Below, in pieces: positions 14,774 through 24,429 of a stretch of DNA of 41,108 nt. The DNA is from Bacteroidota bacterium (GTDB lineage Bacteria > Bacteroidota > Bacteroidia > Cytophagales > Cyclobacteriaceae): assembly GCA_022571715.1 (NCBI GenBank), contig JACZXH010000030.1:1-41108 (forward strand), read 5' to 3'. Position 1 is the first letter of the stretch. Every line of letters starts with the position of its first letter. The notes beneath the pieces were generated by a model, which was given only the letters and a program-made list of their open reading frames with translations, made no database searches and had not been told where the DNA came from. The translations under genes were made by a program, and so were the position numbers.

Positions 14774-15448
14774 CTAATCTTTTGCATCCCCTTTATTGTC
14801 TTCAGCGAAAGCCGAGTCCGGATTCTCTAAGACACTTTCAAATGTTGCGACTGATTCATCTTTTTTATCTTTTTCCGGAAAAAAACGCTTCTGGAATATC
14901 AGAATTATACATACTCCTATAAAAATGGAAGCATCTGCAACATTAAAGATTGCACTGAAAAACAGGAAATTAGTACCTCCAACAATGGGTATCCAGCCTG
15001 GCCATGTAAACTCAAACAGAGGGAAATACAGCATATCGACTACCTGTCCGTAAAACCAGGGTGAAGGAGCATTATAAGGTACATTATCGAGGAGTACACC
15101 ATAGAAAACACTGTCGATCACATTTCCGATGGCACCGGCAAGTATAAGCGAACCGGACCAGAGTAACCCGGAGTGAACGCCCTTTTTGGCATAATAATAC
15201 AGAAAATATATGCCCGCAAACGCAGCAATAAGCCTGAAAGATGTCAGTAAAACTTTACCATACGCCCAGTCGAGTCTCATGCCGAAAGCCATTCCTTCGT
15301 TGAGCATGTAATGAATTCTGAACCAATCACCTATCACTTTAATTTCACCGTTCACACCGAAATCCATGTTGAAATGCACCAGTAACTTAACGGTATGATC
15401 CAATAAGATTACAGCGAGCGTTAGCAAATAATATTTAACGTACTTCAC
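14774..15448 (-). CDS. lspA: Lipoprotein signal peptidase (signal peptidase II)
   Basis: LspA is a membrane aspartyl protease that cleaves prolipoprotein signal peptides. Both catalytic Asp motifs are present: GNVIDS (near residue 112) and FNVADAS (near 172). MNEGMAF (near 52) is the conserved loop. Four transmembrane helices are evident. The 224 residues exceed the ~165 of the E. coli enzyme because of an insert between the two Asp motifs and a charged C-terminal tail, both common in Bacteroidota. The start is a GTG at 15448 that overlaps the ileS stop as GTGA, so the two are translationally coupled. ileS-lspA is a widely conserved pair. Confidence 0.94.
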   Translation of the reverse strand: MKYVKYYLLTLAVILLDHTVKLLVHFNMDFGVNGEIKVIGDWFRIHYMLNEGMAFGMRLDWAYGKVLLTSFRLIAAFAGIYFLYYYAKKGVHSGLLWSGSLILAGAIGNVIDSVFYGVLLDNVPYNAPSPWFYGQVVDMLYFPLFEFTWPGWIPIVGGTNFLFFSAIFNVADASIFIGVCIILIFQKRFFPEKDKKDESVATFESVLENPDSAFAEDNKGDAKD

Positions 15449-18400
15449 CTAACTTCAATTTTTATTTTCAGACTAAATTTATCAATATCAACATCCTGTC
15501 CACCAGTTAACTGATCGGTGATGTTTATTTCTGTTGCCTGCGTTTCGAGACAGATATAATCCTTATAATTCCTGATCGCCGAGATGATCAGTTCCTTGCT
15601 GTTTTCAAGCGTAATCGTGATTTTATCCTGAACATCTAGGCCGGATTCTTTCCTCATATTTTGCAACCGGTTTACTACATCCCTGGCCAATCCTTCTTCC
15701 CTAAGTTCATCGGTAATAGTTATGTCCAGTGCCACGGTTACGTTTCCATCTGAAGCCATAGACCAGCCGGGAATATCCTTAAAAGAGATCTCTACATCTT
15801 CGAGGGTAATCGTAACCGGCGAATCATTCAGTTCTAATGTATAATTTCCTTCTTTTTCAATTTTGTTTATATCGTCTGAACCAAATTTTGCAATTGCTGC
15901 TGAAATATCTTTCATTCTTGAACCGTATTTTCTGCCAAGCTTCCGGAAATTAGGTTTGATCCGCTTTACCAGAATACCCGAAGTGTCATCAACAAATTGA
16001 ATTTCTTTCGTATTAGTTTCAGCTTTTATCAGGTCTGAAACCTTCCCAACAAGTTCTTCCTGTTCTTTATCCAAAACAGGCATAAGTATTTTGGTTAACG
16101 GCTGCCTTACTTTGATCTTATGCTTTTTCCGGATAGAATGAACAAGCGACGAAGTTTTTTGGGCTAGTTTCATTCTTTCTTCAAGATCAATATCAATCAG
16201 GTTTTCAGTCACAACAGGAAAGTTCGAAAGATGTACGGATTTATGGGGTTCTGTCCCAGTAACTTCATTCAGGTCTAGATACATCCGGTCCATATAAAAC
16301 GGCGCAATCGGGGCACCCAGTTTGGCAACTGTAATTAGACAATGGTACAGGGTATAGTACGCTGCTTTTTTATCTAAATTATAAGTCCCTTTCCAGAAAC
16401 GCTTCCTGTTTAATCTTACGTACCAGTTGCTCAAATCATCATTTACAAACCGTGAAATTTGCCTTGCTGCTTTTGTGGGGTCGTATGTATCGAATGCCTG
16501 ATCCACTTTCTTTATCAGGCTGTTTAACCGGGAGGTGATCCAGCGGTCGCTTTCTGTAAAAGCGCGCAGCTCAACTTCCTCACCGGCGTAGTTATCAAGG
16601 TTGGCATATAGTGCAAAAAATGAATAGGTATTATGAAGCGTACCGAAGAACCTTCTTTGCACATCCACAATGCCCTGCTCATCAAACTTCATGTTTTCCC
16701 AGGGATTGGTATTGGAGATCATATACCACCTGGTGGCATCGGCTCCATATTTTTCCAGGATTACAAAAGGGTCAGCCGCATTACCCAGCCTTTTAGACAT
16801 TTTATTTCCGTTTTTATCCAACACGAGGCCATTAGCAATTACATTTTTAAAGGAAATACTGTCAAACAGCATTCCGGCAATGGTATGCAATGTAAAAAAC
16901 CAACCACGGGTCTGATCAACTCCTTCCGCTATAAAATCTGCCGGATAGGTCTGGTCAAAAATATCTTTATTCTCAAACGGATAATGCCATTGTGCATAAG
17001 GCATCGAGCCTGAATCGAACCAAACATCTACCAGGTCAGGCTCACGAAACATTTTCTTACCTGAGTCACTTACAAGAAAGATATCATCCACAAATGGCCG
17101 GTGCGGATCGAAATTTTCATCCAGCGGCTTTTCCATGAAGCCTGCATCAATTGCTGCAGAGACTTCTTCATGAAGCTCTGCAAACGAGCCAATACATTTC
17201 AACTCTATCTTATCAGCAGACACCCATATCGGAAGTGGCGTGCCCCAGAATCGCGACCTGCTCAGGTTCCAGTCCTCCAGGTTCTCCAACCAGTTTCCGA
17301 ATCTGCCGGTTCCGGTTGAGGTGGGCTGCCAGTTAATGGTTTTATTCAACGCCACTAATTTATCCTTTACAGCAGTAGTTTTGATAAACCAGGAATCCAG
17401 GGGATAATAGAGAATAGGTTTATCCGTGCGCCAGCAATGCGGATAAGAGTGGATGTATTTTTCAACTTTGAATGCTTTATTCTCTTCCTTAAGCTTAATG
17501 GCAATGAGGGTGTCCGTTGATTTATAGCTGGAGTCTGATTCATCTTTACCCTCGTAATTTTTTACATACATTCCTGCGAAGTCTGTTATTTCCTTCACAA
17601 AACGCCCTTGCTTATCCACAATCGGAACTTCATTTCCTTCTTCATCTTTTACCATTATACCCGGAATATTGTACTGATTACTCACTCTGAAGTCGTCAGA
17701 GCCAAATGTTTTGGCAATATGTACAATCCCGGTACCATCGGCGGTAGATACAAAATCGGCATGAACAACTGTAAAAGCCGGTTTTGGTAAGGGTACATAC
17801 GGCATAAGTTGTTCATAATCTATTCCAAGGAGATCAACACCCTTCATCTCTTCAACTACTTCGTAAGGAATCAGTTTGTCTCCTTCCTTATACGCATCAA
17901 TCTGAAGACCGTCAGCTTTTGGATTGAAATAAGTATGCAAAAGGTCCCTGGCGAGAATCACGTTTACGGGCTTGAAGGTATAGGCATTAAAGGTCATTAC
18001 CTTCACATAATCAATGCTTTTGTTTACTGCCAGAATACTGTTGGCAGGCAATGTCCATGGGGTAGTGGTCCAGGCGAGAAAATAATCATTTTCTGTGTTG
18101 CTGATTTTAAACTGTGCCGCAATGGAAGTGTCCTTAACGTCGCGGTAACTCCCTGGCTGATTCAGTTCGTGGGTGCTTAAACCTGTACCTGCTGCAGGAG
18201 AATAGGGCTGAATAGAGTACCCCTTGTAGAGCAATCCTCTATCGAAAAGTTTTTTTAACAGAAACCAAAGGGTTTCAATGTAATTGCGGTCAAAGGTAAT
18301 ATAAGGATCATCCAGATCAATCCAATATCCCATTTTCAGGGTCAGATCTTCCCACAGCTCCTTGTATTTCATCACAGCTTCGCGGCACTTGCGGTTGTAT

Positions 18401-18747
18401 GCTTCGACCGATATTTTTTTACCAATATCCACTTTGGTGATTCCAAGTTCCTTTTCTACCTGAAGTTCAACAGGCAGGCCATGAGCGTCCCAGCCACCTT
18501 TTCGCTTAACCTGAAAACCTTTTTGTGTCTTATAACGGCAGAATATATCTTTAACGGTACGTGAAATTACGTGATGAATGCCCGGTGTGCCATTTGCCGA
18601 CGGAGGCCCTTCGTAAAAAGTAAATGTAACAGCTCCTTCTCTTTCCGTTACTGATTTTTCATAAATTCCATTATCTTTCCAATAAGATAAAATCTCATTA
18701 CTAATATCAGCATAGTTAATGTTTTTATATTCCCTGAATTTTCCCAT
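15445..18747 (-). CDS. ileS: Isoleucyl-tRNA synthetase, type 2 (eukaryote-like), GxHH variant
   Basis: The 1100-residue class Ia synthetase charges tRNA-Ile. Residues 56-59 read G-I-H-H, in the context NGTPGIHHVISRTVKD, where the canonical signature is HxGH; the first and third positions are exchanged. I checked the codons at 18582-18571. The second signature is KMSKRLGN near residue 650. The editing (CP1) domain lies between them and WWGTP-like tRNA/aminoacyl motifs (SRSRFWGTPLPIW) near residue 500. Length and KMSKR place it with type 2 IleRS, which are intrinsically less sensitive to mupirocin. It lies 39 bases after the RND exporter gene and overlaps lspA by four bases. Confidence 0.96.
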   Translation of the reverse strand: MGKFREYKNINYADISNEILSYWKDNGIYEKSVTEREGAVTFTFYEGPPSANGTPGIHHVISRTVKDIFCRYKTQKGFQVKRKGGWDAHGLPVELQVEKELGITKVDIGKKISVEAYNRKCREAVMKYKELWEDLTLKMGYWIDLDDPYITFDRNYIETLWFLLKKLFDRGLLYKGYSIQPYSPAAGTGLSTHELNQPGSYRDVKDTSIAAQFKISNTENDYFLAWTTTPWTLPANSILAVNKSIDYVKVMTFNAYTFKPVNVILARDLLHTYFNPKADGLQIDAYKEGDKLIPYEVVEEMKGVDLLGIDYEQLMPYVPLPKPAFTVVHADFVSTADGTGIVHIAKTFGSDDFRVSNQYNIPGIMVKDEEGNEVPIVDKQGRFVKEITDFAGMYVKNYEGKDESDSSYKSTDTLIAIKLKEENKAFKVEKYIHSYPHCWRTDKPILYYPLDSWFIKTTAVKDKLVALNKTINWQPTSTGTGRFGNWLENLEDWNLSRSRFWGTPLPIWVSADKIELKCIGSFAELHEEVSAAIDAGFMEKPLDENFDPHRPFVDDIFLVSDSGKKMFREPDLVDVWFDSGSMPYAQWHYPFENKDIFDQTYPADFIAEGVDQTRGWFFTLHTIAGMLFDSISFKNVIANGLVLDKNGNKMSKRLGNAADPFVILEKYGADATRWYMISNTNPWENMKFDEQGIVDVQRRFFGTLHNTYSFFALYANLDNYAGEEVELRAFTESDRWITSRLNSLIKKVDQAFDTYDPTKAARQISRFVNDDLSNWYVRLNRKRFWKGTYNLDKKAAYYTLYHCLITVAKLGAPIAPFYMDRMYLDLNEVTGTEPHKSVHLSNFPVVTENLIDIDLEERMKLAQKTSSLVHSIRKKHKIKVRQPLTKILMPVLDKEQEELVGKVSDLIKAETNTKEIQFVDDTSGILVKRIKPNFRKLGRKYGSRMKDISAAIAKFGSDDINKIEKEGNYTLELNDSPVTITLEDVEISFKDIPGWSMASDGNVTVALDITITDELREEGLARDVVNRLQNMRKESGLDVQDKITITLENSKELIISAIRNYKDYICLETQATEINITDQLTGGQDVDIDKFSLKIKIEVR

Positions 18748-18786: not shown

Positions 18787-21201
18787 TTAATCAAGCATAG
18801 ATGCTTTATTGTTAGCCTTAATTTGTTCTACATCTATTTCCTCGTCATCTTCTTCTTTGTAAAAATCATCCATTTGCTCGATAAAAGGATGCATATTTTT
18901 CTTTCGTTTTCCATCATCAAATGCAAGGAGCAAGGCAGGTAAAAGAATAAGGTTTGTCAGCAAGCTTATAAGCAACGTCGTGGATGTGAGAAAGCCCAGT
19001 GCCACGGTTCCGCCGAATTCAGAAAATGTGAAAATTATAAAACCCGCAAACAGAACTACCGAAGTGTATATCATGCTTGGCCCGATTTCTCTAAGTGCTT
19101 TGCTTACCGCAACAGGTACAATAAAATTATTACTGAACAATTCCTGTCGGTATTTGGCCAGAAAGTGAATGGCATAATCTACCGAGATACCAAATGCAAT
19201 ACTGAAAACAATTGCCGTACTTGGTTTAAGAGGTATCCCTGCAAATCCCATTATTCCCGCGGTAATAACTAACGGAATAATATTGGGTATGAGAGATATA
19301 ATAATCATTCGAAGATTTGCAAACAGCATCCCCATAATGATGGCTATGATAAAAAATGCCAGCACAAAACTGAACTTGAGATTCGAAATAAGAAAATTAT
19401 TTCCTTTGATAAACAACAGTGTCGTGCCTGTAATTGTGGCTTTCATTCTCGTGTCCTTAAATAACTCCTCCTTTTTAGGCACAATCACATTTTTGATCAA
19501 AGAATCCATCCGGTCTGATCCGATGTCAGCTACTTTAAGACTAATACGCATGATTTGGCTGGTGGAATCAACGAATGCACTAAGAAATGAGGATTCATCT
19601 CCTTCTTTGTTAAAGTATCTGAAGATAAAATCTTTGTCACGCTTATTGGGTAGCGAATACCTGTCCGGATTATTATTATAAAAGGCCTGCCTCATCGCCT
19701 TGATGAAGCTTACTACAGAAATGGGCTTCGAAATATATTTTTGATCCTGAAGAAACTGTTCAAATTCATCTATCACTTGCAGGTTATTCAGGTTTTGAAC
19801 TCCTTTAGGCCTCCCGGTATCAATAAAGATTTCAAGGGGCATTATTCCTGAAAAATTATATTCAAAAAAATGCAAATCTTTCTTTATCTGGCTCTCTTCC
19901 GGAATATCGTCAACCATAAACGCAATTGCTTTTACACGGTAGAGCCCGACCAGCGCAAGAACTATCACAACACCTGTCACAAAAAATATGGGATATTTAT
20001 ATCTGGGCACGAGTTGATCAAGTCCGGTCAGGAGTTTATCCAGCGGTTTAAAACGCAGGTGTTTCAAATGCTTCCATGAGGGTGGAGGCAAGTATGAGAA
20101 TACGCTTGGCAGAAGTATGATGCTTACTACGAACGTGGCCATGATATTTATGGATGCCACGATACCAAATTCCTTCAGAATGGACACATCCGTAAATCCT
20201 AATACCCCGAACCCTACCGCTGTGGTGGCATTTGTTATCAGAGTAACTACTCCAATCTTTTGTATCACCTTTCTGATTGCCCTTTCTTTATCTTTATGCA
20301 GACTATATTCCTGGTGGTATTTGTTGAACAAATAAATGCTGTTGGGTATCCCGATAATCACAATTATCGAAGGAATTACACCTGTAAGCAGTGTAATCTT
20401 ATACTGCATCAATACAATGGTGCCTAAAACCCAGATAACAATTATGCCAATAATAAGTAACGGAAAAATTACAGCAATTTTTGAACGGAAGAACAAAAGC
20501 ATGATCAACCCGGTGATCAACACTGAAAACAGCACAAACATCTGCATCTCCTTTTTTACTTTTACTACTATCACCGCCCGCACAAAAGGTAGCCCTACAT
20601 AATGTATGTCTATTCCGGTAGATTCGGTAAACAGTTTTCCCAGCATATGGATATCATCAATCAAATGAATCCTTTTTTTGCTGTTTGCATATTCGATGTC
20701 AATTCCTGCCAGGATCATTATTGCGCCGTTTTCGGAGTTTATGATCTGCCCGCTGTAAAATTTCTGATCAAGGGCAAACGCCAGCAGGCTGTCCAGTTCT
20801 TTCTGGTTTTCAGGTATCTCGGGAAAGATGGGTATAAGGTTGAACTTCTTCGCTTTTGTGTCCTTCATCATTTTCTTCATGGAAGGCAGCGAAATCACTT
20901 CCGTAATTCCCTCAAGTGTAGCGATTTCATCGCTCAGGTATTTGAATTTTCTGAAATTATCGACCTGATAAACAGCGCTGTCTTTAATGGCCAGGGCAAC
21001 CATATTTCCATCTTCACCAAACTGTTCCTTGAAAGCCTCAAACACAATCATGTCAGGGTCATCTTTTGGCACAACTTTCGCAAAGTTATAGCTCATAGTA
21101 ACCTGTGCCCCTTTATAGGCCATAAACACCGTAATCAATCCCAAAATAATCAGTAATGGTAGCCTGAATTTTATGATTATATGTGATAGTTTATCCCACA
21201 T
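18787..21201 (-). CDS. RND-superfamily (MMPL-type) transporter
   Basis: The protein has about 804 residues with the MMPL/Patched-like layout: a first helix near residues 12-35, an exported loop of ~190 residues, five helices, a second single helix, another exported loop and five closing helices (12 in all). Its lack of a long tripartite AcrB-style porter domain places it with MMPL/hydrophobe exporters rather than drug AcrB pumps. Substrates may be lipids or hopanoids but cannot be named. I prefer the ATG at 21201 (MWDKLSH). The longer reading begins at a TTG at 21228 and would place the -7 box TACCTTTG (21223-21216) inside the coding region. The C-terminus is acidic. It is the first of a likely minus-strand run RND-ileS-lspA. 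Confidence 0.85.
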   Translation of the reverse strand: MWDKLSHIIIKFRLPLLIILGLITVFMAYKGAQVTMSYNFAKVVPKDDPDMIVFEAFKEQFGEDGNMVALAIKDSAVYQVDNFRKFKYLSDEIATLEGITEVISLPSMKKMMKDTKAKKFNLIPIFPEIPENQKELDSLLAFALDQKFYSGQIINSENGAIMILAGIDIEYANSKKRIHLIDDIHMLGKLFTESTGIDIHYVGLPFVRAVIVVKVKKEMQMFVLFSVLITGLIMLLFFRSKIAVIFPLLIIGIIVIWVLGTIVLMQYKITLLTGVIPSIIVIIGIPNSIYLFNKYHQEYSLHKDKERAIRKVIQKIGVVTLITNATTAVGFGVLGFTDVSILKEFGIVASINIMATFVVSIILLPSVFSYLPPPSWKHLKHLRFKPLDKLLTGLDQLVPRYKYPIFFVTGVVIVLALVGLYRVKAIAFMVDDIPEESQIKKDLHFFEYNFSGIMPLEIFIDTGRPKGVQNLNNLQVIDEFEQFLQDQKYISKPISVVSFIKAMRQAFYNNNPDRYSLPNKRDKDFIFRYFNKEGDESSFLSAFVDSTSQIMRISLKVADIGSDRMDSLIKNVIVPKKEELFKDTRMKATITGTTLLFIKGNNFLISNLKFSFVLAFFIIAIIMGMLFANLRMIIISLIPNIIPLVITAGIMGFAGIPLKPSTAIVFSIAFGISVDYAIHFLAKYRQELFSNNFIVPVAVSKALREIGPSMIYTSVVLFAGFIIFTFSEFGGTVALGFLTSTTLLISLLTNLILLPALLLAFDDGKRKKNMHPFIEQMDDFYKEEDDEEIDVEQIKANNKASMLD

Positions 21202-21215
21202 TTTGAAAACAGGCA

Positions 21216-21223
21216 CAAAGGTA
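21216..21223 (-). promoter_or_regulatory. -7 box of the RND transporter gene
   Basis: On the minus strand TACCTTTG matches TAnnTTTG exactly and lies 14 bases before the ATG at 21201. It would give a leader of fewer than ten bases. No clear -33 element was found. Confidence 0.45.
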
Positions 21224-21264
21224 ATCAATTGTATTTATTTAAGTGTAACGATCAGGAGTATAAC

Positions 21265-22841: not shown

Positions 22842-24386
22842 TTATAGCTTTCGAAGCAAATTAACAATTGATACAGATTCTCTCAATGTTTCTTTTACAT
22901 TTTCCACTGGCACCCGTTGTTGTTTCATACTGTCACGATCACGAATGGTCACTTTTCCATCTGAAAGTGTTTGGTGATCGATGGTAACGCAGTAAGGCGT
23001 TCCTATAGCATCTTGCCGGCGATACCTTCGTCCAATGGCATCCTTCTCATCATACTGGCAGTTAAACTCAAACTTTAGATTATGCATGATCTCCCGAGCC
23101 ATTTCAGGCAAACCGTCTTTCCGTACCAGCGGAAGTACAGCCACTTTGTAAGGGGCCAATGCGGGGGGTAAGCCTAATACTACCCGCTGACTTCCGTCTT
23201 CAAGGGTTTCTTCGGAATAGGTACTTGCCAGCAATGCAAGAAACATCCGGTCCAGGCCAATGGAAGTTTCGACTACATAGGGGATATATGATTTGTTTTC
23301 CTTTGGATCGAAAAACTGTAGCTTTTTCCCCGAATACTGTTCATGTGCTTTCAAGTCAAAATCAGTTCTGGAGTGAATGCCTTCAAGTTCTTTAAATCCC
23401 ATTGGAAATTCAAACTCTATATCAGTAGCGGCATTGGCATAATGTGCAAGATTTAGGTGATCATGAAAACGATATTTTTCTTTTGGAATGCCAAGTGCCA
23501 AGTGCCATCGCATTCGTTTTTCTTTCCATTTTTCATACCATTCCAGTTCTTCACCAGGTTTCACGAAATACTGCATTTCCATTTGTTCAAATTCTTTCAT
23601 CCGGAAAATAAACTGCCTGGCAATAATCTCATTCCGGAATGCTTTTCCGATTTGGGCAATGCCAAAAGGGATTTTCATTCGGCCTGATTTTTGAACATTC
23701 AGAAAATTTACAAAGATGCCCTGGGCTGTTTCTGGCCTCAGGTAAATCTCATCGGCGCCTTCGGAGAGCGAGCCCATCCGGGTGTTGAACATCAGGTTGA
23801 ATTGCCGCACATCAGTCCAGTTTTTTGATCCGGAAATTGGATCGACAATCCCCAATTCGGTGATAAGATCTTTAAGATCAGTCAGATTGCCTGAATCAAG
23901 GGCATTTTTTAGTCTTTCGTTTATTCCATTGATCTTTTCAAGATACTTTTTTACCCTTGTATGAGTAGATTTGAATTTTTTTTCATCAAAATCATCGCCA
24001 AATCGTTTGGCAGCTTTGCTTACATCTTTATTGATCTTAGCTTCAATTTTAGCGATGTGATCTTCTATAAGTGTATCGGCACGATATCTTATTTTTGAAT
24101 CTTTGTTATCAATAAGTGGGTCGATAAATGCGTCCACATGACCGGATGCTTTCCAGGTAGTCGGGTGCATAAAAATGGCGGCATCAATACCTACAATGTT
24201 TTCGTGCATCTGAACCATCGCTTTCCACCAGTATGATTTGATGTTATTTTTCAACTCTACGCCGTTCTGTCCATAATCGTAGACTGCTCCTAATCCATCA
24301 TAAATTTCACTTGAGGGGAAAATAAACCCATATTCTTTGGCGTGTGATACTATGTTTTTCAGTTGCACGTCATTTTTCTTTTCCAT
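22842..24386 (-). CDS. glyQS: Glycyl-tRNA synthetase, single-chain alpha2 type
   Basis: The class II enzyme charges tRNA-Gly. It is the eukaryote/archaea/Bacteroidota form (a homodimer), not the alpha2beta2 form. Motifs include GLGAVYDYGQNGVELKNNI at the N-terminus, motif 2 with LRPETAQGIFVNF (near 215) and FRNEI, and the C-terminal anticodon-binding domain starting APYKVAVLPLV and ending with VTIRDRDSMKQ. I use the ATG at 24386 (514 residues, MEKKNDV). The longer reading starts with GTG at 24422 and would run straight through the inverted repeat at 24392-24429. The gene stands alone behind a ~400-base upstream region. Confidence 0.95.
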   Translation of the reverse strand: MEKKNDVQLKNIVSHAKEYGFIFPSSEIYDGLGAVYDYGQNGVELKNNIKSYWWKAMVQMHENIVGIDAAIFMHPTTWKASGHVDAFIDPLIDNKDSKIRYRADTLIEDHIAKIEAKINKDVSKAAKRFGDDFDEKKFKSTHTRVKKYLEKINGINERLKNALDSGNLTDLKDLITELGIVDPISGSKNWTDVRQFNLMFNTRMGSLSEGADEIYLRPETAQGIFVNFLNVQKSGRMKIPFGIAQIGKAFRNEIIARQFIFRMKEFEQMEMQYFVKPGEELEWYEKWKEKRMRWHLALGIPKEKYRFHDHLNLAHYANAATDIEFEFPMGFKELEGIHSRTDFDLKAHEQYSGKKLQFFDPKENKSYIPYVVETSIGLDRMFLALLASTYSEETLEDGSQRVVLGLPPALAPYKVAVLPLVRKDGLPEMAREIMHNLKFEFNCQYDEKDAIGRRYRRQDAIGTPYCVTIDHQTLSDGKVTIRDRDSMKQQRVPVENVKETLRESVSIVNLLRKL

Positions 24387-24391
24387 GGCTA

Positions 24392-24429
24392 CAAAACTAT
24401 GCAAAGTTCGAAACTTTGCCACAGTTTTG
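24392..24429 (-). promoter_or_regulatory. Near-perfect hairpin immediately before glyQS
   Basis: The core GCAAAGTT (24401-24408) and AACTTTGC (24412-24419) is a perfect inverted repeat around CGA. It extends outward to CAAAACTA (24392-24399) and CAGTTTTG (24422-24429). As minus-strand RNA this gives about 17 pairs, counting one G-U, with a single bulged G and a 3-base loop. The base of the stem is five bases from the glyQS ATG. The inner arm also contains TAGTTTTG (24399-24392), an exact TAnnTTTG box. It may be an operator, an RNA element hiding the start region, or both. No T-run follows, so a terminator is unlikely. Confidence 0.6.

Follow-up and report, generated by a model that had tools for sequence, protein, structure and literature searches.

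The closest described systems are natural type 2 isoleucyl-tRNA synthetases (IleRS2) in which the class I signature HXGH is replaced by G/AXHH. The initial annotation of the locus described here referred to a study of such enzymes. The study in question is that of Brkic et al. (2023, PMC10485003), which does report the G/AXHH form together with a high Ki for mupirocin and largely kept activity. In it, G/AXHH was found in 86 and HXGH in 77 type 2 enzymes among 379 IleRS sequences, and the swap in none of the type 1 enzymes. With the swap, the Ki for mupirocin increases by a factor of up to about 10^3, while activity declines only mildly. The D. radiodurans IleRS2 (ALHH) has a normal kcat/KM, and its Ki drops from 6.6 mM to 8.1 uM when HVGH is introduced. 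Conversely, GVHH raises the Ki from 0.20 to 35 uM in T. thermophilus IleRS2 and from 1.08 to 460 uM in P. megaterium IleRS2, each with a modest loss of activity. As these engineered enzymes reach only 35 and 460 uM, how strong the effect is varies with the scaffold. The third-position His is described as replacing the role of the first His and as clashing with mupirocin, and introducing GXHH into IleRS1 leaves no activity. The S. griseus IleRS bears the same motif; its mupirocin Ki is about 10 mM (PMC4861432). Antibiotic selection is argued for in PMC10485003, with at least two independent gains and a reversion in Deinococcus-Thermus. Words beginning with "Bacteroid" are absent from the text of that paper, to which this search was confined.

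The locus compared here lies in a stretch of 41,108 nucleotides (the window) from a Bacteroidota bacterium (GCA_022571715.1, contig JACZXH010000030.1). The features referred to in the following are:

15445..18747, minus strand: ileS, type 2 isoleucyl-tRNA synthetase, 1100 aa (TIGR00392; PF00133, PF08264, PF19302)
18571..18582, minus strand: GIHH, residues 56-59, swapped class I HxGH signature (translation; G56, H58 and H59 invariant)
17692..17697, minus strand: Asp351-Asp352, CP1 editing site (invariant in a 20-row alignment)
16972..16986, minus strand: HYPFE, residues 588-592, marker of eukaryote-like/type 2 IleRS (motif search; PMC4861432)
16789..16803, minus strand: KMSKR, residues 649-653, a form of the KMSKS loop with Lys652 kept (motif search, aligned rows)
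15451..16035, minus strand: C-terminal DUF5915 domain, residues 905-1099 (PF19302, 190.7 bits)
14774..15448, minus strand: lspA for the lipoprotein signal peptidase, which overlaps the 3' end of ileS (NF011369, 245 bits; PF01252)
18787..21228, minus strand: MMPL/RND-family transporter, upstream neighbour and outside the feature (PF03176, 112 bits; TIGR00921 below cut-off)

The ileS reading frame starts with ATG and is free of internal stops, and the N-terminus of its product reads MGKFREYKNINYADISNEILSYW. The plus strand at 18571..18582 is gtgatgaatgcc, which on the minus strand gives GGC ATT CAT CAC, in frame, that is Gly56-Ile57-His58-His59. The initial annotation had placed Gly-Ile-His-His at these codons with the first and third positions of HxGH exchanged, and both statements hold to the base in an intact frame. 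When aligned with the type 2 enzymes of P. megaterium, the surrounding protein sequence, FYEGPPSANGTPGIHHVISRTVKDIFC, matches their HIGH region without a gap, and the columns of G56, H58 and H59 show no variation in two alignments. We also looked for a canonical HxGH elsewhere in the protein, which the initial annotation had named as evidence against its reading. A regular-expression search with H.GH and H..H found neither pattern elsewhere in the 1100 residues.

NCBIfam and Pfam domains, the HYPFE motif, the place in the tree and the predicted fold all identify the protein as a type 2 IleRS. The NCBIfam ileS model TIGR00392 gives it 951 bits (cut-off 621.4) and so assigns it to the isoleucyl-tRNA synthetases, and it contains the domains tRNA-synt_1 (PF00133), Anticodon_1 (PF08264) and DUF5915 (PF19302). 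The models for the acquired mupirocin-resistance enzymes MupA and MupB reach only 771 and 775 bits against a cut-off of 1900, so it does not belong to that group. HYPFE, described as a marker of the eukaryote-like/type 2 group (PMC4861432), is present, and the sequence flanking the signature differs from that of E. coli and Listeria IleRS1, as is typical of type 2. In a tree of 60 rows, from which the motif columns were left out, the protein falls inside a 55-row group with 100% SH-aLRT that does not contain the IleRS1 of E. coli, Listeria and Sinorhizobium; branches near the root are long and the deepest joins are unsure. Among solved structures the best sequence match is 8c8w (813 bits), whereas no type 1 enzyme scores higher than 301 bits.

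The predicted model of the protein has a mean pLDDT of 76, and near the catalytic loops its confidence is only moderate to low. Its top Foldseek match is again 8c8w, and it aligns to 8c8v, 8c8w and 8c9d over residues 3-1100, thus including the C-terminal domain of the type 2 fold, with Z of about 37-38 versus about 30 for PmIleRS1. In general, structural Z values of the model are 37-39 against bacterial type 2 enzymes, 28-30 against the type 1 enzymes of P. megaterium and S. aureus and about 25 against that of H. pylori. The model places GIHH where helix 57-75 begins, the first helix to follow strand 41-46, and this is the usual place of HIGH. Sequence and predicted model hence both show G/A-X-H-H in the position that H-X-G-H normally takes, at the beginning of helix alpha1. 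The Asp351-Asp352 pair, whose role is assigned from homology with the editing Asp described in PMC4861432, suggests that proofreading by the ileS product is intact.

With the natural G/AXHH enzymes of S. griseus and D. radiodurans (PMC10485003) the protein shares the type 2 class, the exchanged positions 1 and 3, a hydrophobic position 2 and the fourth His. It differs from both in its Bacteroidota source and in having KMSKR instead of KMSKS, and from the D. radiodurans enzyme in having Gly instead of Ala in the first place. The closest solved structure, 8c8w, is the P. megaterium GVHH-IleRS2, a "hyper-resistant HIGH motif mutant", with which it shares GxHH and the type 2 C-terminal domain at 36% identity over the structural alignment. 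In that mutant, however, GVHH was introduced in place of HVGH and impairs kcat and KM, whereas here the swapped form is native. MupA, the plasmid-borne staphylococcal IleRS, is likewise type 2-like, associated with mupirocin resistance and 37% identical, but it is acquired and has a canonical HTGH. Other Bacteroidota IleRS (58-70% identity, GIHH, KMSKR), for example those of Splendidivirga corallicola, Belliella buryatensis and Parabacteroides distasonis, are the same enzyme without notable difference.

The KMSKR form is usual in the class to which the window belongs (59 aligned rows), the exceptions being two rows with KMSKS (L077, L086) and one with KMSKH (L116). The aligned rows from other classes of the phylum mostly have KMSKS. 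The Plasmodium falciparum enzyme has KMSKR together with HYGH (PMC12077802), therefore KMSKR is neither unprecedented nor bound to GxHH.

A second ileS gene was not found in the draft genome, which is 95% complete; the other matches to the ileS model are valS, leuS and cysS according to NCBIfam. The order ileS-lspA is the same as in E. coli, and the gene therefore looks like a housekeeping gene rather than an acquired resistance gene such as that of MupA. A glycyl-tRNA synthetase gene (22842..24422, minus strand; NF003211, 660 bits) lies on the same strand within about 4.1 kb of ileS, separated from it by the MMPL transporter and an HD-domain phosphohydrolase. Searches for tRNAs and Rfam families in the window found none.

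The distribution of the motif was determined in two ways. A DNA pattern for NGxPGxHH was found in all 392 sampled genomes of the phylum, which represent 179 genera, while the reversed control pattern was almost silent. One of these genomes (G232) gave no IleRS match in the protein search, yet the pattern is present. A corresponding search for HxGH matches nearly all genomes; the matches seen are NGYLHIGH and NGPxHIGH, as expected of other class I synthetases, and they therefore say nothing against a fixation of GxHH. The alignment of type 1 and type 2 enzymes, which the initial annotation had proposed, gives GxHH in 100 of 109 rows, the motif being taken from the best BLAST frame of each locus. 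The nine rows without it comprise three IleRS1, the ValRS of the same genome as outgroup, MupA, an archaeal HIGT enzyme and three HYGH enzymes (from Bdellovibrionales, Nomurabacteria and one further bacterium). GIHH or GVHH is present in all examined members of the genus, family and order as well as in other named Bacteroidota; the named relatives of the source organism are of the Cytophagales type. Two congeneric genomes with 93% and 89% identical proteins keep the swapped motif. Outside the phylum the aligned rows show GxHH in the Bacillota and Actinomycetota, namely in Clostridia, Anaerococcus, Nonomuraea and Rhodococcus.

The GIHH enzyme is thus the rule in its phylum as sampled and an unremarkable case of a class that has been published. 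It had been put forward as a natural Bacteroidota example of the swap; it is indeed a type 2 GIHH enzyme, but nothing singles it out among its relatives. A non-canonical signature is accordingly the normal state of a major phylum, within the sample, and not the oddity of a single gene. For annotation this means that a missing HIGH in a Bacteroidota IleRS is not to be taken as an error. The GIHH form itself was already published, and we add no mechanism beyond that of the 2023 work.

We consider it highly probable that the gene encodes a housekeeping type 2 IleRS, the only one found in the genome, whose native GXHH allows normal charging and inhibition by mupirocin only at very high dose. Judged by homology with the IleRS2 mutants of P. 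megaterium, the enzyme would have its active-site helix shifted in such a way that a third-position His fits. His58 would then do the catalytic work of the canonical first His, with Gly56 in the first place, and by its bulk would clash with mupirocin. Charging of tRNA-Ile would be normal, and mupirocin would inhibit only at upper micromolar to millimolar concentrations. As the sole IleRS found in the genome, the enzyme very likely activates its amino acid, and by analogy with the characterized enzymes it is probably very resistant to mupirocin. What counts against this reading is the KMSKR loop, which is unlike that of the tested bacterial enzymes, together with the scaffold-dependent Ki of the engineered enzymes, the draft state of the genome and the limited confidence of the model near the catalytic loops.

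By the same reasoning, the mupirocin target of Bacteroidota is predicted to be intrinsically insensitive. The literature searched contains no direct report on their mupirocin sensitivity. One study (PMC10234816) lists the effects of other antibiotics on Bacteroides and that of mupirocin on E. coli, which is weakly consistent with resistance of the Bacteroidota. Mupirocin was also used with Porphyromonas gingivalis (PMC6994654); the part of that text found does not give the outcome.

A different question is whether the antibiotic maintains the swap at all. It may be an old catalytic solution that the phylum took over from its ancestor and that has become entrenched, with resistance as a by-product. 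This concerns the origin and not the function of the motif and can hold together with the preferred reading. The swap is fixed in the entire phylum sample, the GxHH rows cluster on the tree with two label changes, and many of these bacteria need presumably never meet a mupirocin producer. Moreover, MupA is resistant with its canonical signature, so the swap is not the sole route to resistance. However, PMC10485003 favours antibiotic selection with multiple gains and a reversion, and few HxGH type 2 enzymes are contained in the present sample. We therefore regard entrenchment as quite possible, though slightly less probable than its opposite. For the broader proposal that the swap is fixed in all Bacteroidota, that hyper-resistance of the target goes back to the phylum ancestor instead of being a scattered adaptation, and that the swap may persist regardless of the antibiotic, we see the arguments as evenly balanced.

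A severe catalytic defect or a different function of the enzyme is very improbable. Such a view could be based on the first His of HIGH, which is essential in other class I enzymes, and on the inactive GXHH variants of IleRS1. Against it stand the intact frame, editing site and KMSK lysines, the conservation of the motif across the phylum, the absence of another IleRS among the genes found in the 95% complete genome and the normal kcat/KM of the D. radiodurans ALHH enzyme. A sequencing, assembly or frame artefact is refuted, since the same form recurs in independent genomes at the level of genus, family, order and phylum, and conservation together with the intact frame likewise rules out a pseudogene.

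Three single loci of the survey deserve mention. One relative (L019) has one in-frame TAA inside its ileS match, perhaps at the edge of the match or through an assembly error. A Candidatus Woesearchaeota contig (L067, JAFGPW010000006.1) contains an IleRS-like signature HIGT, in which the fourth His is replaced. Finally, a Rhodococcus opacus plasmid (L119, NZ_CP095404.2) carries a type 2 IleRS with GTHH and KMSKH, which may represent a mobile ileS2 with the swapped signature.
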